In this document: positions 33,757 through 43,411 of the stretch, piece after piece
How positions within the stretch are numbered: position 1 is the stretch's first letter
Layout of the letters: each line of letters opens with the position of its first letter
From: Oscillospiraceae bacterium
GTDB taxonomy: Bacteria > Bacillota > Clostridia > Oscillospirales > Oscillospiraceae
Reading direction: 5' to 3'
NCBI GenBank assembly: GCA_902765595.1
Contig: CACXAQ010000009.1
Span: 1 to 43,411 of the forward strand
DNA length: 43,411 bases
Position numbers and translations under genes: made by a program
The notes under the pieces: generated by a model
The model's database searches: none
Told to the model about the DNA's origin: nothing
What the model saw: the letters and a program-made list of their open reading frames with translations, nothing else

Positions 33757-34251
33757 CTATTGTGCGGTGATGTTTTTCTTGATCTGGCGGATGGCGTTCT
33801 TCTCCAGCCGGGAGACCTGGGCCTGGGAGATCCCCACGGCCTTGGCCACCTCCATCTGGGTGCGCCCGTCGTAAAAGCGCAGGGCCAGGATCCGCTTCTC
33901 CCGGGCCGTCAGGCGGCGCACGGCGTCGGCCAGGGCGATCTGCTCCAGCCAGTGCTCGTCGGTGTTGCGGGTGTCGCCGATCTGGTCCATGACGGTGACG
34001 CTCTCGCCCGCGTCGCTGTATACCGGCTCGTAGAGGCTAACCGGGTCGCAGATGGCCTCCAGGGCGAAGACCACCTCCTGCCGGGGAATGTCCAGGGCTT
34101 TCGCGATGGTCTCCACGTCCGGCTCCTTGCCGTTTTGAAGGCTCAGCTTTTCCTTCACCTGCAGGACCTTGTAGGCGGTGTCCCGCATGGAGCGGGAGAC
34201 CCGCACGGCGCTGTGGTCCCGCAGGAAACGCCGCAGCTCCCCGGCGATCAT
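33757..34251 (-). pseudogene. sigG: 3' fragment of sigma-G gene, interrupted by an integrated element
   Basis: The 164-residue frame aligns from memory with the last ~165 of ~260 residues of forespore sigma factor sigma-G: the region 2.4 segment RRFLRDHSAVRVSRSMRD, region 3, and the region 4 helix-turn-helix (GRTQMEVAKAVGISQAQVSR). Missing are region 1.2 to most of 2.3. Homology begins at V-P-M-I (Val codon at 34257-34255); further upstream the frame reads unrelated residues and meets a stop codon. No ribosome site precedes the ATG at 34251, so it cannot make working sigma-G as it stands. The adjacent recombinase suggests that excision would restore the gene, as with B. subtilis sigK. It could instead be a dead remnant if an intact sigG exists elsewhere. 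Confidence 0.9.
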
Positions 34252-34252
34252 G

Positions 34253-34291
34253 GGAACGATTATCGGATGGAGAGAAGATTGTAAACGTTCC
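34253..34291. promoter_or_regulatory. Candidate attachment site at the sigG/element junction
   Basis: An inverted pair GGAACG (34253-34258) and CGTTCC (34286-34291) spans the point where sigG homology stops and ends 10 nt before the recombinase stop codon. Serine recombinase att sites are ~40-60 bp imperfect dyads, so size and place fit. The exact crossover should lie at or near GTTCCCATGAT (34247-34257), the last sequence encoding sigma-G residues. Confidence 0.5.
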
Positions 34292-34300
34292 GAAAATCAA

Positions 34301-35881
34301 TCATTCTGGATCAATTTCGGTATTTTTCAGATACTTTCTGAGCTGCAGCTTCACGTCGATGCTGCCGTCCTTGTAGATGATCACCCGGTCGATGAGCTGC
34401 TGGCAGGTGCTCTGCCGCTGCACGTCGTTCATCTCCGGCCAGGTCGACTGCAGGGTGCGGAGGATGCCCTTGATCTTCTGCTTTTTCCTCTCGATGGTGG
34501 AATAGCGCTCCTCCTCGCGGATCTGCGCCTCGATGTTCCGGACGCGCTGCCTGGCATCGAGGATCTTTTCGCTGAGCACGTCGTCGGTCTCGTCCTCGTC
34601 TTCGAAATCGTAGAGACGGCTCAGGCGCTTGCGCGCCGCAGCCAGCTCCTTTTGCAGCACGGCGATGTTGTCGACGCTGTTTTCCGTCTTCCGCGTGTCG
34701 GGCTGCCCCAGGTATTTCAGCCGGAACAGCTCGTCGATGACGGCCTGCTCCACGTCCTTGCACCAGAAGCGTTCGCTGTCGCAGCTGTCGGCCTTGCCGA
34801 AGCGGGCGTTGCTGGATTCCTGCGAGCTGTAGCAGACCAGCTTATGCCCCTTGTCGCCCCATTTCTGATAGCGCATCTTCGCGCCGCATTCCCCGCAGTA
34901 CACGAGCCCCGAGAGCAGATAGTTGGAGGCCGTTCGGTTGACGCTGCGGCGCTGTATCTCCTCCTGCGCCTCCTGCCAGGTCTCCAGGGAGATGATGGCT
35001 TCGTGATTGCCCTCGTACTCCTCACCGTTGAAGATGATGCAGCCGGTGAGGGACTTGCGCATCAGGATCTGACGGATCGCCTGGTCGCCGCTGAAATGAA
35101 AGCGCTCCGCGATCTTCTGCGGCGGCATCTTTTCTTCGATATACAGGCGGAAGATCTCCCGCACGACCTCCGCTTCCTCGGGCACGACCTCCAGCGAGGA
35201 GGTCTCCTTGTTGTAGCGGTAGCCGAAGGGCGCGTTGCCGCCGCCCATCCACTTGCCGGAGGCCACCCGCGCCTGCCGCCCGCGCTTGAGCTTTTCCACG
35301 ATCTGGTCGCGGTCGAACTCCGCCAGCGTGGCGAAGAGCATCAGCAGGAACTTGCCCTGCGGGTTGTCCTTGTCGATCCGGCAGTAGTTTTCCGCCACGG
35401 AGACGAAGTTGATGTCCTCCCGGTTGCGGTTGACGGCGCTGTTCTTGCTGTCCTTCGCGGCGACGATGTAGTCCTGGATGAACTGCAGCGTGCCCAGCAG
35501 GGAGCGGCCCAGACGGTCGATGCGCGCCACCACCAGGGAGTTGACGCGGATGTGCGATTTCCCGGTGTTGAAGTCCGTGATCGCGCCCATGATCTCCTGC
35601 AGGGCGGGGCGCTCCATATTGGTGCCGGTATAGCCGTCGTCGATGAACAGCACCAGGTTTTTATAGCCGTTGGCCGTGCACCAGCGGACGATATCGGCCT
35701 CCTGGATATCCAGTCCGAAGCCGAGATCCGCCTGTCGGTCGGTGGATACGCGGAGGTAGCCCACGTTGATGAGGAAGTTGTCGTCCTCGTCCAGCTCCAC
35801 CGCCTCGTCGATAACGATCTTCATGTTGTGCTTGAGATCCAGTATGTTTTTCAGGTGATAGGTTCTCTCTGTCTTTTTCAT
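34301..35881 (-). CDS. Large serine recombinase (site-specific integrase/excisionase)
   Basis: 526 residues. The N-terminal resolvase domain has catalytic S46 in VGYLRVSTDRQ and the conserved VARIDRLGRS segment. The middle is a recombinase domain (PFGYRYN), followed by a zinc ribbon with CGECG near 325 and a second Cys pair, then a C-terminal coiled coil (~370-480) that controls direction in this class. It cuts and joins attP/attB or attL/attR with no DNA homology needed. It is the relative of SpoIVCA, which excises skin from sigK. It reads in the same direction as sigG and ends ~50 nt from it. The start at 35881 follows AAGGAAGGTG. Host-encoded versus phage origin is not decidable. Confidence 0.94.
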   Translation of the reverse strand: MKKTERTYHLKNILDLKHNMKIVIDEAVELDEDDNFLINVGYLRVSTDRQADLGFGLDIQEADIVRWCTANGYKNLVLFIDDGYTGTNMERPALQEIMGAITDFNTGKSHIRVNSLVVARIDRLGRSLLGTLQFIQDYIVAAKDSKNSAVNRNREDINFVSVAENYCRIDKDNPQGKFLLMLFATLAEFDRDQIVEKLKRGRQARVASGKWMGGGNAPFGYRYNKETSSLEVVPEEAEVVREIFRLYIEEKMPPQKIAERFHFSGDQAIRQILMRKSLTGCIIFNGEEYEGNHEAIISLETWQEAQEEIQRRSVNRTASNYLLSGLVYCGECGAKMRYQKWGDKGHKLVCYSSQESSNARFGKADSCDSERFWCKDVEQAVIDELFRLKYLGQPDTRKTENSVDNIAVLQKELAAARKRLSRLYDFEDEDETDDVLSEKILDARQRVRNIEAQIREEERYSTIERKKQKIKGILRTLQSTWPEMNDVQRQSTCQQLIDRVIIYKDGSIDVKLQLRKYLKNTEIDPE

Positions 35882-35903
35882 AAGTACACCTTCCTTGGTT
35901 CAT

Positions 35904-35932
35904 AGAATAGCATAGTTTTTCTCTGTCCGCAA
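35904..35932 (-). promoter_or_regulatory. Promoter of the serine recombinase
   Basis: Minus strand TTGCGG (35932-35927), 17-bp spacer, TATTCT (35909-35904) with TG one base upstream. It resembles sigma-A, not the sigma-E consensus of spoIVCA, so sporulation control is not evident from the promoter. Confidence 0.55.
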
Positions 35933-35980
35933 TAAATCTGCGTTTTTTCTCGCAAGAACTGCGAAATATAGGAATGGCGA

Positions 35981-36016
35981 AAAACGGTATGGGTCGTGAC
36001 CGGCTCATACCGTTTT
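35981..36016 (-). terminator. Terminator of the 102-residue element gene
   Basis: AAAACGGTATG / CATACCGTTTT stem with a GC-rich loop; on the minus strand it follows the small gene at 36028 and ends in a T-run before the recombinase promoter. Confidence 0.75.
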
Positions 36017-36027
36017 CGCTTTTCTTT

Positions 36028-36336
36028 TCACAGCACCGGCTCTCTATGGCGGGGTCTCTTGGGCGGGGGCATCGCGTCCCGCTGTTTCACGAGCTCCTGG
36101 TTCCTCTCCAGCTTTTTGAGCACCGAGGGCTTCCCCGCCGCGGGAGGCTCGTCCGGCTCATCATCGAGCTCGTCGTCCAGCGCGTCCTGCTCGGCCCTCG
36201 TCAGCGGACGACGCTCATTGCGCTCGTAGATCTCATTCACGATCCTGTCCACGTCGGGGCAGTTGATCCGGATCTTGTCGTAATCGGACGGGTCGATCAG
36301 CTCGTCGCCGAGAAACAGTCTTACCTTAAATTCCAT
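36028..36336 (-). CDS. Hypothetical acidic element protein
   Basis: 102 residues: a short beta-like start (EFKVRLFLGDELI), a helix, an acidic Asp/Glu stretch (~50-66), then a Pro/Lys/Arg-rich tail. I recognise no family. No good ribosome site precedes the ATG at 36336, so the start is uncertain. A terminator directly downstream supports a real transcript. It lies between recombinase and relaxase, a common place for excision or mobilisation accessory genes, but that is only a guess. Confidence 0.55.
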   Translation of the reverse strand: MEFKVRLFLGDELIDPSDYDKIRINCPDVDRIVNEIYERNERRPLTRAEQDALDDELDDEPDEPPAAGKPSVLKKLERNQELVKQRDAMPPPKRPRHREPVL

Positions 36337-36553
36337 ATACAGGGTAACCGCTGATCAAATGCCACTTCGGCGCTTTGTGGTCTTTTTCCGCCATGATTTT
36401 GTCTCGAAATCTTGAAATACACAAAGTATGTCTGCGATTTCTCGCCTTCATCCTGACGAAAAAATCCTCACAAATCACTCTCGTGGATTCAATCATCGTT
36501 TACCTCAACCCCTCCTTCCTTATTTGAAATTGTTGCCGATTCGGGCAAAAAGT

Positions 36554-36578
36554 AATCCCCCGCCGGGCGGCGGGGGAT
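36554..36578 (-). terminator. Terminator of the relaxase gene
   Basis: ATCCCCCGCCG and complement on the minus strand, followed by a T-rich stretch. The rest of 36337-36598 shows no gene I can support. Confidence 0.75.
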
Positions 36579-36598
36579 CGTGGTGACCGGTATTCTTT

Positions 36599-37585
36599 TC
36601 ATAAACTCAGCTCCTTCTTTTTCTGCGGATCGGGCACCCCGCGCAGCAGCTCCGGCGCGTACTGGCTGACCCGGCGGTACAGGTTCTGGTAATCCGCCTC
36701 CAGCTGCTTGGCCGTCAGCCGCTCGGTCAGCTTCTTCTCCTTGACCTGTTTGCTGAGGTCTGCCTTGTCGGCCTCCAGCTTGCCCACCCGGTCTGTCAGG
36801 CTTGCGTTCTCCTTCTGCAATTCCCGGTAGGCCTTCTCGTAGCCGCTCAGCGTCTCCTTGAATTTGGTCAGCTTGGGGAAGAGCTTTTTCAGCCGCTTCC
36901 GAATCTCTTCGATATTCTTCTTAGCGGTGAAGGCGTTGGTCTCGTCCATGATCGCCAGCATGCCGCGCAGCTGCTTGTCCAGGTGCTCGGCTTCCTTGAA
37001 GAGCCGCGGCGGGATATGGGTGCGGCCGGTGATGCTGGCGCTCTTGCCCCGCTCCAGATCCGGGTACTTCTCCGCCATGTGCTGCCAGAAGCCGTCCTGC
37101 CACTCCGTCAGCTTTTTCTTGTTGCCCACGATCTCCTTGGCGCTCAGCCGCCCGTCCTCCGTGATCGGGACAAAAGAAACGTGCATATGGGGCGTCTTCT
37201 CGTCCATATGCACGACGGCGGATATGAAGTTTTCCGGGGCGATCCGGCCTTGCAGGAAGCCCAGCGCGTGCTCGAAGTAGGCGCGAACTTCTTCCCGCTT
37301 CTTTCCCTCGAAGAATTCAGGGCTTGCGGTGATGAGCGTCTCCACCACCCGGACGCTGTTGGAGCAGACGCGTGGGCACTGGCACTCCTTGATCCGCGCC
37401 TCCGCCTGGGTGCGGTACTTGTCCCGCGGCTCGACCAGGTGGAAGTTGAATTTGCTGCGGCTCAGATCCACATCGGGATTACTGGCGTAGGTCTCCTTGG
37501 TGCGCTCGTTGTGAGCCTCGATGTTGCTGATCTCAGGCCCCTTGTACTTGGCGAAGCGGAGGATGCCGTATTGTGCCGTTGCCAT
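36599..37585 (-). CDS. mobV: MobV-family relaxase (plasmid mobilisation / Pre)
   Basis: 328 residues. Motif I holds HNER (H25), and the metal site motif III is H126-x-DE-x2-P-H133-x-H135, matching the MobV class (pMV158 MobM), where a His rather than Tyr is the nucleophile. Residues ~220-310 form a Lys/Glu-rich coiled coil. It nicks one strand at oriT so that the element can be mobilised by another conjugative system. The start at 37585 follows AAGGAGG, after a rejected earlier in-frame start at 37612. No oriT like that of pMV158 was recognised. Its first base overlaps the stop of the next gene upstream. Confidence 0.92.
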   Translation of the reverse strand: MATAQYGILRFAKYKGPEISNIEAHNERTKETYASNPDVDLSRSKFNFHLVEPRDKYRTQAEARIKECQCPRVCSNSVRVVETLITASPEFFEGKKREEVRAYFEHALGFLQGRIAPENFISAVVHMDEKTPHMHVSFVPITEDGRLSAKEIVGNKKKLTEWQDGFWQHMAEKYPDLERGKSASITGRTHIPPRLFKEAEHLDKQLRGMLAIMDETNAFTAKKNIEEIRKRLKKLFPKLTKFKETLSGYEKAYRELQKENASLTDRVGKLEADKADLSKQVKEKKLTERLTAKQLEADYQNLYRRVSQYAPELLRGVPDPQKKKELSL

Positions 37586-37815
37586 CAGCGCCTCCTTTTC
37601 TGCTTCCGCCACACGATGTTGTAACCAAGCACGGAGGCAAACTCCACGGCCTCGCGGTAGCTGAAGGAACCTCGCCGGAGCTTCTCGGAGAAGGAGACAA
37701 TGGAATCAGTCCAACCATACTGTTCGCGCAAACGCTCCAGCACGATCGTATCCGTAAGACTGCCGCGCAAAATCTGCTTAGAGAAATCATTGATGATTTT
37801 CTTGGAATTTTTCAT
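37585..37815 (-). CDS. Small HTH-like element protein
   Basis: 76 residues with a basic C-terminus. The GWTDSIVSFSEKLRRGSFSY segment, followed by REAVEFASVLGYNIVW, resembles a helix-turn-helix of the type that senses DNA in small element regulators (similar to DUF6471-like proteins from memory). GAGG precedes the start. It overlaps mobV by 1 nt, so it is cotranscribed and may regulate it or help at oriT. Function not assigned. Confidence 0.65.
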   Translation of the reverse strand: MKNSKKIINDFSKQILRGSLTDTIVLERLREQYGWTDSIVSFSEKLRRGSFSYREAVEFASVLGYNIVWRKQKRRR

Positions 37816-37859
37816 TTTCTTATCCTCATTTCTTTTTTGATGTTGATTTGAAATTCTCC

Positions 37860-37871
37860 GTACGTTCGTAC
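37860..37871. repeat. GTACGTTCGTAC palindrome-like motif
   Basis: One of three copies of a GTACGNNCGTAC/GTACGNACGTAC motif (others at 39835 and 40065). It lies next to the D5 helicase stop codon. Confidence 0.6.
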
Positions 37872-37872
37872 G

Positions 37873-39168
37873 TCATGGGATCAGCGCGTAGATGCCCACA
37901 TAGCCCCGGACGCGGCGGCCGTTGACATAGAGGTTGTTGGTGCTCTCCAGTCGATACTCCGGCGCAAGCGCGGCCATCTGATCCAGAAAGCTCTTCTTGG
38001 CCAGCGGGAAGTAGGCGTTTTCCTCGCACCACAGGACATACAACTCGTACAGGCGTTGGGATGTGATATCGTAATCCGCCTTGAAGCCGATGTAGCCCTC
38101 GGATTTGAGAAACTCCGTCACGTTATTCCCCTCGGACACGCTCTCCCGCATGTTCTCCCGGCTGCGCTCGCTGAGCGTGAAGCGAAAGTCGTTGGCCATC
38201 AGCCGCCTCAGCCCCGCCAGCGCCCAGAGAAAGATGCTGTCGATCTCGGCGATCAGCTTTTCGGACAGGAAAGGATCGTCCACCCGGTCGACGGGCTTGT
38301 CCTTCACCGTCAGAATGATCTGACGGCGGAAGAAGCCGACGCTGCGATCATAGCGGGATTTCAGCGCCCCATTGCCAAAGCCGATGAAGCGCACATACAT
38401 GGTGCCCTGGTAGCTCTGCTTGCCCTTCTTCTCCAGATCCATGGGCAGCTCCGCCGTGATCAGGGTTTTCAGGATGTTCGTATCCGGCAGCGCCTCCATC
38501 TTCATATCGTCGTCCACCATCAGCAGCCCGTACTCCAGATCCGCGCGGGCAAAGGGGCTGGTCTCCACCTTGGCGATGCTGCCGGAATACATGTTGATGC
38601 CCAGCAGCGCCGACAGCACGATCCCAACGCGGGACTTGCCTTCGCCGCCCTTGCCCACCAGCATCAGCATTTTCTGGGCCTTGGTGCTGGGGATCAGACA
38701 GTAGCCCATGAACTCCTGCAGGGTCAGAATGTCTTCCGGGATCAGCAGTTCCTCAAGAAAGCGCAGCCAGCGCTCCGGCCTTGGCGCGTCCGGGTCATAG
38801 CGTACCGGCAGCCGGTTCAGACAGAAGTCCTTGCTTTCCTCAAAGCGGCCGTCCAGGAACAGCGTGCCGTTGGCCACGTGGATGCGGTCGTGGTAGATGG
38901 GCAGCGGCGGGGAGAAGCACTCCGAACGCAGGGCCTCCAGCAGGTTGTTGACCTTCTTGGAGACGCCGGTGCGCACATAGGGCTTGATCATCTGGTAGAT
39001 CTCGCTCTTCAAGCTGCCCTCGTCCGTGACCTTGCCGTCCCGGGTAAAGAAGGTCTCATGGATGCAGAGCATCGGATGGCTCTCCCGAAAGCTCTCACAG
39101 AAGCCCACCTCGTCGATCTTCCCGTTCCCGTCCAGCCAGATCGGCGCAGGCTCAGAAGATGTCGTCAT
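37873..39168 (-). CDS. D5/P4-family primase-helicase (phage/plasmid replication)
   Basis: 431 residues. The SF3/D5-type helicase core has Walker A GKGGEGKSRVG (~173-183), Walker B LLMVDDD and a following sensor; the N-terminal D5_N segment (~100-160) and a C-terminal winged-helix-like region are present. The archaeo-eukaryotic primase domain of P4 alpha is lacking; the primase-type zinc domain is a separate gene next door. It unwinds the element's DNA during replication. Its start overlaps the CHC2 gene by 17 nt, with AAGGAGGTGATC 5 nt upstream, an ideal ribosome site. Confidence 0.9.
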   Translation of the reverse strand: MTTSSEPAPIWLDGNGKIDEVGFCESFRESHPMLCIHETFFTRDGKVTDEGSLKSEIYQMIKPYVRTGVSKKVNNLLEALRSECFSPPLPIYHDRIHVANGTLFLDGRFEESKDFCLNRLPVRYDPDAPRPERWLRFLEELLIPEDILTLQEFMGYCLIPSTKAQKMLMLVGKGGEGKSRVGIVLSALLGINMYSGSIAKVETSPFARADLEYGLLMVDDDMKMEALPDTNILKTLITAELPMDLEKKGKQSYQGTMYVRFIGFGNGALKSRYDRSVGFFRRQIILTVKDKPVDRVDDPFLSEKLIAEIDSIFLWALAGLRRLMANDFRFTLSERSRENMRESVSEGNNVTEFLKSEGYIGFKADYDITSQRLYELYVLWCEENAYFPLAKKSFLDQMAALAPEYRLESTNNLYVNGRRVRGYVGIYALIP

Positions 39169-39724
39169 ACGCGATCACCTCCTTCTGCAAAACGCGCTCG
39201 TAGTGATCCAGCACGCCGCCGGTCAGGTAGGCGATCTCGTCCGACTTCTGCTGCTCTGTACCCCCGGAAAGCAAATCTGCCAGACCTACGATAAAATCGT
39301 ACATCTGGCAGTTGCGTGCATATTCCGTTGTGATGGGATCGTCCATGGTCTGCGGCGCGGTCAATCGTTTTTGCCGGTGGAGCCGAACCTCCATCTGCAG
39401 CAGCACATCATGACAGCGCTGGGCCGGATCGGGCGGCTTGGGCGGTGCGGGCGAGGCCGGTAGCTCGACTCCGTTCCCGAAGTCCTTGACCAGCTTTTCC
39501 GCCGCTTCCGGCAGAGACAGGTTGAAGAACTTGGCGGTGAAGTCGATCACGTCTCCGTCCTCTCCGCAGCCGAAGCAGTGAAACCGATCGTCCAGCTTCA
39601 TGCTGGGATTGTGATCGTCATGGAAGGGGCACAAGGCCATCCCATGACTGTTTACTGTCAGCCCATAGTGTTCCGCCGCCTCGCGGGCTGTGACGAGGCT
39701 TTTGACGCTTTTGAAATCAATCAT
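39152..39724 (-). CDS. CHC2 zinc-finger primase-like protein
   Basis: 190 residues. The N-terminal ~85 residues are a CHC2 zinc finger with C32-x2-H35 and C50-x2-C53, as in DnaG, preceded by a short helix-turn-helix-like stretch (VTAREAAEHYGL). A Pro-rich linker and an unassigned helical domain follow; the TOPRIM catalytic domain of DnaG is missing. It probably recognises template DNA and hands it to the D5 helicase encoded by the overlapping next gene. AAGGAGG lies 8 nt before the ATG. Confidence 0.9.
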   Translation of the reverse strand: MIDFKSVKSLVTAREAAEHYGLTVNSHGMALCPFHDDHNPSMKLDDRFHCFGCGEDGDVIDFTAKFFNLSLPEAAEKLVKDFGNGVELPASPAPPKPPDPAQRCHDVLLQMEVRLHRQKRLTAPQTMDDPITTEYARNCQMYDFIVGLADLLSGGTEQQKSDEIAYLTGGVLDHYERVLQKEVIAYDDIF

Positions 39725-39834
39725 TTTAATAGCCTCCTTTTTTCTGTTCTCGGAAAAGTGAGAGCAGTTATTTAAAAACGGGATTTCTCACTTTTCCGGT
39801 TTGGAGGCAGGCAAGAAAAAAGGACCTGAACCCT

Positions 39835-39846
39835 GTACGCACGTAC
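39835..39846. repeat. GTACGCACGTAC motif (copy 2)
   Basis: Lies at the tip of a minus-strand hairpin whose arms are GGACTTGAA/TTCAGGTCC with a following T-run. Confidence 0.6.
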
Positions 39847-39989
39847 AGATCGATTCAAGTCCTTTTCGATTATTCCAGTTGTGGCCCGCTTACACCTCCC
39901 TTCGCGCGGGCGGAAAAGAATTTGGCTTTTGCCTGTTTCCGCCCAATTATACGAAAAAAACCTTCACGGGAAGCTGAAATCGACACTTC

Positions 39990-40034
39990 TGCATTTTTGC
40001 AAGCGGGGGTTTGCCTAAGATTGCATTTTTGCAA
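39990..40034 (+). repeat. TGCATTTTTGCAA direct repeats
   Basis: Two identical 13-bp copies with start points 32 bp apart, about three helical turns; each is itself nearly palindromic (TGCA...TGCA). Candidate operator or iteron pair. Confidence 0.6.
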
Positions 40035-40064
40035 TTTCGGGCATAAAAAAACCGGAGCCACCGT

Positions 40065-40076
40065 GTACGAACGTAC
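40065..40076. repeat. GTACGAACGTAC motif (copy 3)
   Basis: Exact complement of the 37860 copy, at the apex of a second minus-strand hairpin (AATCCGG/CCGG with a TTTTTTT tail). Confidence 0.6.
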
Positions 40077-40101
40077 GGATGATTCCGGATTGCATGTCGT
40101 G

Positions 40102-40130
40102 TTGCCAATAAGCAAATCCTGGTGTATTAT
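40102..40130 (+). promoter_or_regulatory. Promoter of the nucleotidyltransferase/DUF6602 pair
   Basis: TTGCCA (40102-40107), 17-bp spacer, TATTAT (40125-40130). Confidence 0.55.
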
Positions 40131-40169
40131 AAATTAAAGCACCTAAACAGCGGGAAAGAAGGGATTAAT

Positions 40170-40934
40170 ATGACCGCAGATGAGTATATTTTGATGATAG
40201 TAAAAAAACATAGGTTGCCAAACGAGATTGATTATACTACGCAGTATAGAGTTATCCAGCCGCTAAAAAGCATCATTTACACATGGGCAGGGAGTTCATT
40301 ATGTGATATTAAGATATCCGGCTCCCGCGCAAAAGGAACTGCTATTGACCTCTGTTCGGATTTAGATTTATTCATTTCATTATCCTCGTCAACCCAACTT
40401 CCGCTTAAGCAAATATATGATAGTTTATATAACCATGTGTGTAGACAAGGCATTCCGGCTAGACAGCAAAATGTTTCGATCGGCGTAACATATGCAGGCA
40501 GTAAAGTTGATTTGGTTCCAGCGAGAAGAGAAGGACAGTACGGAAATGATCACAGCCTTTATCGTAGGAAAACAAACTCATGGACCAAAACAAATATAGA
40601 CAAACATATTAGCTTAGTCAAAGATTCAGGTCGAACAACCGAAATAACTGCTCTGAAAATCTGGAGAGAAAACCACAATTTGGATTTTCCATCTATTTAT
40701 CTTGAGATGTTTGCAATAGATGCATTACGCGGGAGAAGCCTTTCGGCACCGGCCAGCAATTTCATTTATTTGTTGAATTGTATTTCAGAACAATTATCAA
40801 CTAAAGTAATACTCGACCCGGCAAATACGAACAACGTTTTATCCGGTGAACTGACTGGGCAAGAAAAAGCTAGAGTTGCCACGCAAGCCAAAGCAAGTAT
40901 ATCCGAAGCTTATTGGTCAAGCATCATTTGGTGA
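40170..40934 (+). CDS. CD-NTase-like nucleotidyltransferase (candidate defence signal synthase)
   Basis: 254 residues, AT-rich. The Pol-beta-type active site is G51-S52 and S-D64-L-D66, with a third acidic residue D114 in KVDLVPARR. The C-terminal half has the OAS/CD-NTase-type helix pattern (ALKIWRENH, then FPSIYLEMFAIDAL). CD-NTases make cyclic or linear oligonucleotide signals in CBASS; alternative homes are other nucleotidyltransferase defence or toxin families. The start at 40170 follows GAAGGG; the first in-frame codon, at 40122, overlaps the -10 box. It is followed after 9 nt by a DUF6602 PD-(D/E)XK-like gene and then a terminator, so the two form an operon. The reaction product is unknown. 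Confidence 0.8.
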   Translation: MTADEYILMIVKKHRLPNEIDYTTQYRVIQPLKSIIYTWAGSSLCDIKISGSRAKGTAIDLCSDLDLFISLSSSTQLPLKQIYDSLYNHVCRQGIPARQQNVSIGVTYAGSKVDLVPARREGQYGNDHSLYRRKTNSWTKTNIDKHISLVKDSGRTTEITALKIWRENHNLDFPSIYLEMFAIDALRGRSLSAPASNFIYLLNCISEQLSTKVILDPANTNNVLSGELTGQEKARVATQAKASISEAYWSSIIW

Positions 40935-40943
40935 GGGATTATT

Positions 40944-41681
40944 ATGAATCAAATTGACATGCTTGGATTGTTCAAAAGTCTACAAGAAGAGATGCGAGCA
41001 AAACTCGAACTGGGTCGCGCCATGATCCCGCACAACGGGGAAATGGGTGCCGCCGCAGAGGATAGCTGGCGAGAGTGGCTGAGAAAATATTTGCCGAAAA
41101 GATATAAGGTTGATAAAGCCTTTGTCGTTGACTCTAACGGGAATTGTAGTGACCAAATTGATATTGTAATTTACGATAGTCAGTATTCATATTTTTTGTT
41201 TAACCATGAACAGGTGCTATATATCCCTGCCGAAAGTGTATATGCTGTGATCGAGTGCAAACAGACGCTGAATAAGCAGAACCTTCAATATGCAGGAGAA
41301 AAAGCGGCAAGTGTTCGTGCACTTTATCGGACATCAAACAATATTCCTTTTGCCACGGGAGTGTATAATCCCAAGCCATTACATACAATCCTCGCAGGAA
41401 TAATTGTAATAGAGTCTGAATGGAAAGACCCATTGGGAGATACCTTCAAAAGCAACATGAAACTCCTTAGCGAGGATTGTAGATTGGATTTCGGATGTGC
41501 AATTAAGCAAGGATCGTTTTGGGCAGAATGGGACCCAAGTCTTTCTATAAAGAAAAGCGCAAAAGATGAAGCATTGCTCTTTTTCTTTTTGCAATTACTT
41601 ATGAAATTGCAGATGATCGGAACTGTCCCGGCAATAGACATTGGTAAGTATGCCAAAGTGCTTCAATCGTTTGAGACGTAA
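40944..41681 (+). CDS. DUF6602-domain protein, PD-(D/E)XK nuclease-like
   Basis: 245 residues. Residues ~30-110 match the DUF6602 pattern I know: GEMGAAAEDSWREWL, then YKVDKAFVVDSNG, QIDIVIYD (D73) and AESVYAVIECK (E104, K106). The D...E-x-K spacing is that of PD-(D/E)XK nucleases. The C-terminal ~130 residues are unassigned. If active it would cut nucleic acid and could be the effector of a system triggered by the nucleotidyltransferase upstream. No known CBASS effector domain such as SAVED is visible. Base composition equals the upstream gene and differs from the rest of the element, so both arrived together. Confidence 0.8.
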   Translation: MNQIDMLGLFKSLQEEMRAKLELGRAMIPHNGEMGAAAEDSWREWLRKYLPKRYKVDKAFVVDSNGNCSDQIDIVIYDSQYSYFLFNHEQVLYIPAESVYAVIECKQTLNKQNLQYAGEKAASVRALYRTSNNIPFATGVYNPKPLHTILAGIIVIESEWKDPLGDTFKSNMKLLSEDCRLDFGCAIKQGSFWAEWDPSLSIKKSAKDEALLFFFLQLLMKLQMIGTVPAIDIGKYAKVLQSFET

Positions 41682-41692
41682 GATAAATAAAT

Positions 41693-41737
41693 AGCAAGGC
41701 TCGGATCAATAGAAATTGACTTGAGCCTTGCTTTTTT
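41693..41737 (+). terminator. Terminator of the two-gene AT-rich module
   Basis: GCAAGGCTC / GAGCCTTGC stem around a 20-nt loop, followed by six T residues. Confidence 0.85.
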
Positions 41738-41855
41738 GTAAGGAATTGTACGAAAGCTCATCAAACTTGGAGCACCGCAAAGAAGAGTCCGTTTTTTGGG
41801 ACACCTTCTGTGAGATAATGGTAGCATCCCAGAGTATGAAAAGGAGGTGCTGCAC

Positions 41856-42689
41856 ATGGCAGAGAAGGTATTTTTGCCTGGTGGGATCAAGGAGCGACTG
41901 GAGGATCTTCGCAACCGACGTAAGCTCACATTGAAAGATGTCTCGGAGAAAACCGGTATCGACTATTCCACACTCAGCCGGATCGAGAACGGGAATGTGA
42001 AAAAGGTCGGGGATGACGCGTTGCTGAAGCTCGCCCGTTTCTTCGGCGTGTCTACAGACTTTTTGCTCGGCATCACCGACGTGCCCGACAAGAAAAACTA
42101 TACAATTGAAGAGTTGTGTCTGACACCCGACTCCGCGCGAAATCTTTACAGCGGTGCGGTGGACAGCCGCGTGATCAATCTGCTGCTGGAGCACCCGGAT
42201 TTCGGCACACTGACAAACCGCATTGCCGATTATCTGGACGACAGGATGGCTGCGGGGATCGCCGCACAGAACCAGCTTTACGATTCTGTCAGCGACCTGA
42301 TGATGCGGATCGGAAAAGAGGAAAAAGCACTCCGTCAGGCAGCGACCACACAGGTCAAGGAAGCGAAGGCTCTGCGTCGGAAGCTCTATGCGGACGAACT
42401 CGCGCAAATTGAAACCTTGTTTAAGTCGATTCTTTCCTCCATCAAAAAAGAGCATCCGACTGGCAAGCCGGAGGCGGCGAAAGCTATGACAAAAGATGCT
42501 TTTGATAAAATGCGGTCTGAGCTGACGAAGGGCGGCGCGGCTGCTGAAATCCTGAAGGTTCAGCCGGAGCAGATCACCGCGTATCTGGCGGAAAGCATGT
42601 CGGTTATGGACGGTGTAAGCGAAGAAATGAAGGAGAATCTCTCCCGGTCGCTTCTGCCGTTTTTTAAGAAACCGGGCAAGTCGGGATGA
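41856..42689 (+). CDS. XRE-family transcriptional regulator
   Basis: 277 residues. Residues ~9-67 are a cro/C1 helix-turn-helix (LTLKDVSEKTGIDYSTLSRI, then the FFGVSTDFLLG end). The remaining ~200 residues are helical and Lys/Ala/Glu-rich with no domain I recognise. AAGGAGGTG precedes the ATG at 41856. It overlaps a sigma-70-like gene by 4 nt (ATGA), so repressor and sigma-like protein are coupled, and it probably controls genes of this element. Confidence 0.88.
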   Translation: MAEKVFLPGGIKERLEDLRNRRKLTLKDVSEKTGIDYSTLSRIENGNVKKVGDDALLKLARFFGVSTDFLLGITDVPDKKNYTIEELCLTPDSARNLYSGAVDSRVINLLLEHPDFGTLTNRIADYLDDRMAAGIAAQNQLYDSVSDLMMRIGKEEKALRQAATTQVKEAKALRRKLYADELAQIETLFKSILSSIKKEHPTGKPEAAKAMTKDAFDKMRSELTKGGAAAEILKVQPEQITAYLAESMSVMDGVSEEMKENLSRSLLPFFKKPGKSG

Positions 42690-43411
42690 GCAAAACATAC
42701 GAGAAAAGCAACGAGGCCCTGGCCATCCTCGCCCAGTGCGGCTGCGAGGTCGTGAAAGAAAAGGCCCGCGATCTTTTGCTCCGGCGCAACGAGGGCCTGA
42801 TCTACGACAAGGCGCTTACATACTGGAACTATGTGATCGGTTCCGACATTGATCGCTCACTCACGCTGGACGATCTGGTTCAGCTCGGCCGCATCAAGTT
42901 TTGCGAAGCGCTCGCTGCGTTTGATCCGCTGCGCGGGACAAAGCTGACCACGTTCATGACGGCAGTGCTGAACAATTTTATGATCGACACCATCCGCCCG
43001 GGACTGAAAGAGAAGGAAGCGATCGGCGGTGAGTTTCATTGGTTGGATCATTATGAGGGCTCCGAGGATCAGCTCACTTTTTTAGAAAAGTACATCAACC
43101 CGTATGAGAAAAAGCCGGAGCCGAACTTGCTGGAGAAAGAGCATCGGCGAGAAGTTTTCGATTCGCTGGATGGCTGCGCACCGCGGGAGAAAACATTTCT
43201 GGCCTATCGCTTTGGCTATCCCGCAGACGATGAGAGGACGAAGAAAGAAACGCGGGAGCACTTCGGCCTCAGCGAAACCAGAGCCGAAGACTTGGAGCAG
43301 CAGTCCTGCACACATTTCAAAAAGAACTACATCGAGATCCAGCGCAAAACCGAGGAATCGCTAAAGCCGGAAGAACACGCTTATGTTCCTTCCTGCGTTG
43401 CGCCTCGGACC
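42686..43411 (+). CDS. Sigma-70-like protein encoded on the element (partial, cut by window end)
   Basis: An open frame of 242 codons with no stop before the edge. Residues ~33-105 resemble sigma region 2 (LTLDDLVQLGRIKFCEALAA, then the TFMTAVLNNFMIDTIRP segment), and ~158-215 resemble region 4 (REKTFLAYRFGY, then a helix-turn-helix-like KKETREHFGLSETRAEDLEQ). The middle contains a HWLDHYEGSEDQ spacer. It starts in the XRE stop codon (ATGA). It may direct RNA polymerase to element promoters. The region 2 match is clearer than region 4. No C-terminus is seen, so length and family rank are open. Confidence 0.75.
   Translation, partial: MSKTYEKSNEALAILAQCGCEVVKEKARDLLLRRNEGLIYDKALTYWNYVIGSDIDRSLTLDDLVQLGRIKFCEALAAFDPLRGTKLTTFMTAVLNNFMIDTIRPGLKEKEAIGGEFHWLDHYEGSEDQLTFLEKYINPYEKKPEPNLLEKEHRREVFDSLDGCAPREKTFLAYRFGYPADDERTKKETREHFGLSETRAEDLEQQSCTHFKKNYIEIQRKTEESLKPEEHAYVPSCVAPRT

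Follow-up and report, generated by a model that had tools for sequence, protein, structure and literature searches.

The sporulation genes described as hosts of intervening elements are sigK, spsM, spoVFB, spoVR, gerE and yabG, the last four being split by vfbin, vrin, gin and yin, respectively (PMC4191935, PMC5595907, PMC10747680, in the text available from each). In the available part of PMC4191935 the excision of such elements is confined to the mother cell, which agrees with what the original prediction for the present locus had stated about skin, and owing to this confinement the elements are not lost from the spores. In Clostridioides difficile the large serine recombinase (LSR) of skin is driven constitutively by sigma-A, and a small factor provides the cell-type control (PMC5025042, in part). 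In SPbeta, the prophage that interrupts spsM, the genes of the constitutive LSR (sprA) and of the directionality factor (sprB) are located at opposite prophage ends and flank attP on the circle, and sprB is driven by sporulation sigma factors (PMC8270828, partial text). Sigma-G is active in the forespore (PMC4191935 and PMC5025042, in the parts available); excision confined to the mother cell is therefore expected to fail for an element in sigG.

The element described here splits sigG, an unusual target, since the cell that requires this gene is the one from which the next generation arises. To our knowledge, it would be the first intervening element in a forespore gene. It resembles skin in sigK of Bacillus subtilis and C. 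difficile, in that an LSR element splits the gene of a late sporulation sigma factor with in-frame rejoining, but has another site and another LSR, recurs across families and in both orientations, and lies in a gene of the forespore, the cell that passes its genome on; its excision is predicted from the sequence. The fdxN element is a developmentally excised element of cyanobacteria, and its recombinase XisF is the best-scoring curated model for the LSR of the present element, though far under the cut-off (3e-33, 115 bits vs. a cut-off of 375). Heterocysts are terminal cells, whereas forespores are not.

The elements vfbin, vrin, gin and yin likewise interrupt sporulation genes, but wherever the available texts name a cell it is the mother cell, and each is described there from one strain, whereas one LSR family is found repeatedly at sigG across an order. 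No report of an intervening element in sigG (spoIIIG) was found among open-licence PMC papers, and the original prediction likewise knew of no established case; the available text of PMC8270828 mentions SigG only as the regulator of sspC. A family that targets sigG breaks the mother-cell rule, either by excision in the inherited cell or by holding the sporulation of the host hostage, and both readings matter for the control of sporulation and transmission in gut commensals. In addition, the LSR family and its attachment site provide a further compact recombination system.

The interrupted sigG gene in the window

The window spans all 43,411 bp of contig C9, which belongs to a 2.14 Mb assembly in 61 contigs (84% complete), and its right end falls inside the element. 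The 3' part of sigG (33757..34257, minus strand) consists of 166 codons and the stop codon (33757-33759). As predicted, this sigma-G homologue begins at V-P-M-I inside region 2; the start, V-P-M-I-A-G-E, corresponds to residue 94 of an intact congener, and the first 93 residues are missing. The break is located in the conserved FSTY-VPM stretch. The best curated families for the remaining part are both SigG (NF006071, 6e-74; TIGR02850, 2e-71), with the alignment covering positions 92-254 of TIGR02850. The attachment-site core GTTCC (34253..34257, minus strand) is common to the end of the N half in relatives. Adjacent to it is the element-side arm CCATCCGATAATC (34258..34270, minus strand), an inverted repeat of GATTATGGGATGG at the opposite element end of relatives.

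The gene of the LSR, a predicted integrase/excisionase of 526 aa (34301..35881, minus strand), is separated from the break by 43 bp, measured from its stop codon, and runs in the same orientation as the sigG part. The protein has a Resolvase domain with the conserved serine motif, a Recombinase domain and a zinc ribbon (Zn_ribbon_recom). The motif V44-S45-T46 is invariant across the six LSRs aligned, and its serine is presumably the conserved serine of the catalytic domain of LSRs. Mobile genes come next: a Mob_Pre relaxase (36599..37612, domain match 8e-51), a D5_N/DUF5906 primase-helicase-like protein (37873..39168, domain match) and a CHC2 zinc-finger protein of the primase type (39152..39724, domain match), all on the minus strand. 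The arrangement foretold for the region beyond the break was thus found. The relaxase is one mark of a mobilisable element or ICE; no conjugation apparatus was seen among the 10 window genes scanned, the element being incomplete in the window.

The genes beyond these lie on the plus strand. The cargo comprises a SMODS-like nucleotidyltransferase (40122..40934, match below the curated cut-off) and an adjoining DUF6602 protein (40944..41681, domain match), which are possibly a defence pair (40122-41681). An HTH_3 regulator (41847..42689, domain match) and a sigma-70 region-2 protein (42686..43411), cut by the contig end, follow.

Genes like sigF and sigK are present in the same assembly. A second, intact sigG elsewhere in the genome, which would have spoken for a degraded copy, was looked for together with the N half, and neither was found in this 84%-complete assembly. 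The left end of the window copy is thus unseen, and the expectation of an N half at the other end of the element is borne out in relatives, in three of them on one contig with the C half, but not in the genome of origin.

Split sigG genes, attachment site and recombinase family

Relatives were surveyed by a first scan of 60, then by genus-wide scans of 102 genomes, after which the junctions were read. Some sigG was detected in 73 of the 102 genus genomes at the thresholds used. The gene is split in 19 and not split in 54, the latter including G025, G031, G431 and G461, in which contig ends cut it. The partial genes of these four and of G464-C27 were not counted as splits, since they end at contig ends. 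Both halves are present in 14 genus genomes (G017, G018, G027, G032, G441, G445, G456, G463, G469, G476, G478, G481, G490 and G491), the C half alone in four (G000, which is the window, G005, G007 and G479), and the N half alone in one (G019). All the carriers encountered are metagenome-assembled.

In G018, G456 and SUG784, the last from outside the genus, both halves are found on one contig and strand, separated by 22.7, 17.4 and 3.8 kb, respectively. Here, as in skin, co-oriented halves of a sporulation gene flank the element; the window copy shows the side of the C half only. Further skin-like features are the element's own recombinase at its end, the shared core and the exact in-frame rejoining. 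In 14/14 genus genomes with both halves, the joined halves are uninterrupted and free of internal stops. Together with the shared core, this supports the prediction that excision restores TY(G/A)-VPMIAGEL. The split is not due to chance, for the break, the core and the LSR are all found again in relatives.

In the genus, copies in forward orientation read TAYGGN-GTTCCA-(G/A)CG.TTA..GGATGG on the N side and mostly CCATCCGATAWTC-GTTCC(C/G)-ATGAT on the C side. On the N side, taken over all copies, the valine codon varies as it does in the hosts (GTT, GTG, GTA); on the C side it depends on the element, being GTT in the forward copies of the genus and ATT in others. In those forward copies, CC is followed by A on the N side and by a variable base on the C side. 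Judging by which flanking bases derive from the host and which from the element, the crossover most likely takes place at the CC of the conserved proline codon. The two element ends are inverted repeats of each other around a centre of 14 nt. Excision between the end sites would rejoin GTN-CC|N-ATG and restore sigG exactly. In the inverted copy of G456, the central dinucleotide read by eye from the LSR side is GG, not CC, which fits the reversed insertion of that copy.

When genome contigs were searched with an alignment of six LSRs, 23 LSR loci with identities of 38-99% were obtained. In 22 of them, the LSR end is no more than 2 kb away from a sigG half that has its break at the same codons; the remaining one (L053, in G441) is cut by a contig end, and the same contig carries the N half. 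The distance from the LSR end to the sigG half is 54-76 bp in two measured loci, 0.8 kb in SIG466, and 1.8-1.9 kb in four loci of the RGIG6303 group (an ATPase gene lies between in L068). Since 22 of the 23 loci lie at sigG and the last is cut there, the LSR family is, judged by its positions, dedicated to a single site, namely the codons for V-P-M in sigG region 2. In 394 genomes of the order, among the candidates listed (three per genome), only the genome of the window and G374 match the LSR at 1e-100, and the LSR of G374 also sits at sigG. The LSR of G032 looks frameshifted.

A 62.6 kb IMG/VR viral record encodes an LSR with 61% identity and ends in the codons IPMIIGEIRR, which read as the start of a sigG C half, this being a short match (tblastn E 0.52). 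Annotated phage records contain only LSRs below 60% identity, the 15 listed matches ranging from 26 to 34%. The circle junction (attP) was not found as an exact pattern in viral contigs, nor with up to three mismatches in the 102 genus genomes, the patterns being modelled on genus copies only.

Directionality candidates and promoters

Two conserved genes accompany the LSR. The end gene, opposite the LSR, encodes a protein that in complete copies is 101-192 aa long and shows weak similarity to HNH_repeat (7/8 members, best 2e-6). Its start is 45-211 bp away from the core in SUG784 and in the 14 forward copies of the genus in which the N side is assembled, and it adjoins the sigG C half in the inverted copy of G456 and in G180, G374 and G398. 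The gene has a ribosome-binding-site-like sequence, and in most copies less than 50 bp separate it from the core, a space too short for a promoter of its own; in the forward copies it would thus be read from sigG. Order-wide the end gene was found in 4/394 genomes, the fourth (G084) carrying a partial copy away from sigG. At the sensitivity used, searches of viral contigs and of phage and plasmid records detected no relatives; none was found in the 62.6 kb IMG/VR record either, and a PDB profile search with the family gave nothing credible (best E 0.61). A PHROG match (phrog_22655, function unknown, 6/8 members, best 3e-4) was set aside as weak and uninformative, and a single-sequence structure was discarded for its pLDDT of 42. 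Two genomes with intact sigG also have end-gene relatives: a partial one ~15 kb from sigG in G034, and broken ones on another contig in G460 (loci L130 and L132).

The second candidate is a small ORF upstream of the LSR. In the window it encodes an acidic protein of 102 aa (36028..36336, minus strand), and its relatives (42-102 aa, or 128 in a frameshifted copy) occur in 25/25 elements examined, a count that includes the model seeds (window, SIG636/G374, RGIG8669) and SIG466, with a weak match that lies on the opposite strand. In G481 the ORF is apparently frameshifted. It matches DUF3801 only weakly (2/11, best 0.002) and no PHROG below 0.07, and no named family of known function was matched by either candidate. 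In the 3.8 kb element of SUG784 the end gene, a prepilin-like gene, the small ORF and the LSR are the only recognisable genes.

The directionality factor could be either the end gene or the small ORF. The presence of the small ORF by every LSR examined, along with the inverted copies, makes the end gene less favoured as the sole candidate. The layout of SPbeta, as far as the available text of PMC8270828 describes it, favours the end gene again, for in the sigG element the LSR and the end gene likewise occupy opposite ends. The differences are that spsM is a mother-cell gene, that the end gene is HNH-repeat-like and apparently has no promoter of its own, and that the cargo of most sigG elements is not visibly phage.

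Upstream of sigG there is a motif, GTATC or GCATG followed by GGGAAATA(A/C)T(A/G), which we take, by its likeness to the consensus, to be a sigma-F-type promoter. It occurs in 24/27 sequences vs. 5/5400 shuffles, the pattern having been written after the sequences were seen. All the split N halves of the genus (15/15) and the intact genes (7/7) have it, as do G037 and SUG784, while it was not found before sigG in SIG466, RGIG8954 and SIG636. In 14/14 genus forward copies with the N side assembled, the end gene follows this promoter. In the inverted copies (G456, G180, G374 and G398; by the position of the LSR also SIG466 and RGIG8954) it does not. The four inverted rows do not group in the LSR tree; its forks are weakly supported, and a single origin is possible. 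The LSR genes have sigma-A-like sites, with a mean score of 9.4 of 13 vs. 6.8 (sd 2.3) in shuffles, and a score of at least 10 in 9/24 genes vs. 2.5% of shuffles. The site of the window copy (TTGCGG - 17 nt - TATTCT; 35904..35932, minus strand) is a consensus match only, with a weak score of 8.

In several genus genomes, e.g. G463 and G478, the sigG leader can form a hairpin just 5' of the start codon (CACCACTC...GAGTGGTG, then T-rich), which possibly damps the translation of sigG.

Probable reversible excision and alternative readings

The split genes were compared with intact ones for signs of decay. The pN/pS ratio of the C half is 0.256 in 18 split genomes vs. 0.243 in 7 intact ones, and that of the N half 0.208 in 14 split vs. 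0.206 in 7 intact; the constraint on the halves may partly predate recent insertions. SpoVAC/AE, targets of sigma-G, are present in 19/19 split, 54/54 not split and 6/29 genomes without detected sigG, and SASP in 16/19, 47/54 and 6/29, respectively. The split genomes differ from those without sigG at P = 2e-8 for SpoVAC/AE and 2e-5 for SASP, in a comparison that ignores relatedness and completeness. Broken frames, relaxed constraint and loss of the target regulon, the marks of a pseudogene, were thus not observed in the split sigG, and the dead-gene alternative raised by the original prediction is weakened by the preserved frames, promoter and regulon.

On these grounds the locus probably harbors a reversible intervening element that splits sigG, sporulation being completable only after the element leaves. 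In vegetative cells the LSR, expressed from its sigma-A-like promoter, would hold the element integrated. A directionality factor, either the HNH-repeat-like protein of the end gene or the product of the small ORF, would trigger excision, and only cells whose sigG has been freed of the element would finish sporulation. This excision may be developmental. In the forward copies the sigma-F-type promoter of sigG would transcribe the end gene, leading to excision in the forespore. Since in these copies the HNH-repeat-like gene lies behind this promoter, the very signal that calls for sigG may set off excision in the forespore, which we consider quite possible, if a little short of an even chance. 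A constitutive LSR combined with a forespore trigger would be the simplest developmental reading for the forward copies, in likeness to the skin element of C. difficile and to SPbeta as far as described.

Excision may instead be random or linked to mobilisation, with only element-freed cells completing sporulation, as in a hostage situation similar to active lysogeny. Because the developmental reading leaves the inverted copies uncovered, such non-developmental excision at the population level is nearly as likely, although taken by itself it is less than probable. It predicts the same anatomy, and is consistent with the relaxase and primase-helicase-like genes of the window copy, with the viral record that has the same LSR type at an apparent sigG, and with the inverted copies, which have no promoter coupling. 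It also agrees with horizontal spread: between close carriers, synonymous differences are much fewer in the LSR than in the host sigG (e.g. 0.14 vs. 0.42 for the sigG C half between G000 and G469), and the element therefore spreads between species, many insertions being possibly young. The position of the end gene behind the conserved forespore-type promoter of sigG in every genus forward copy with the N side assembled argues against it, as does the retention of a 3.8 kb element with no recognisable mobility genes. The likeness to sigK drawn in the original prediction accordingly stands in one part, the precise splitting of sigG by a recombinase element; developmental excision is weakened by the lack of an excised form in the searches above, by the horizontal movement and by the inverted copies.

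The developmental reading can be extended to the fate of the element, which would persist in the spore in circular form and insert again once the spore has germinated. The complete germ-line rearrangement, in which sigma-F makes the trigger, the element is excised in the forespore, carried as a circle in the spore and re-inserted, and sigma-G is gated in each generation, is a tentative proposal that we regard as rather doubtful.

A sterile insertion, in which sigG is inactivated and the carriers are losing sporulation, is unlikely. Site targeting alone would explain the recurrence at sigG, and recent spread the intact halves. Of the 102 genus genomes, 29 have no detected sigG, 23 of these also lacking a SpoVA match, which suggests that sporulation has been lost at times within the genus. 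Nevertheless, the split genomes retain SpoVA and SASP like the unsplit ones, and within the genus neither of the two frames nor the promoter is damaged.

That the two halves act as a two-polypeptide sigma factor is very improbable: both look constrained, but the break lies inside the FSTY-VPM stretch, the first ATG in the window C half has no visible ribosome-binding site in front of it, and the tails of the N halves are element sequence that differs between copies. An assembly chimera, conceivable as all the carriers encountered are metagenome-assembled, is refuted for the family: identical junctions occur in numerous independent assemblies, including ones from goat, roe deer, water deer and sheep gut, and the halves are on one contig in three cases. 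Its probability is negligible.

The elements of G456 (L108, 7997-17755) and G018 (L029/L030) contain, by eye, restriction-modification-like and large ATPase-like genes. They differ from the window copy in cargo and agree with it in the end modules.

In G037, a member of another family, sigG is also in two parts (L033, 8059-8550; L034, 6524-6826), which have an 11 bp common core, CCGATGATTAT. This genome was left out of the split count, as neither an LSR nor an end gene is found at its junctions. Next to its halves are genes of chromosomal appearance, nth-like on one side and germination-receptor-like on the other, and a serine recombinase gene lies ~3 kb from the C half. The split in G037 is perhaps a chromosomal rearrangement through the same site.
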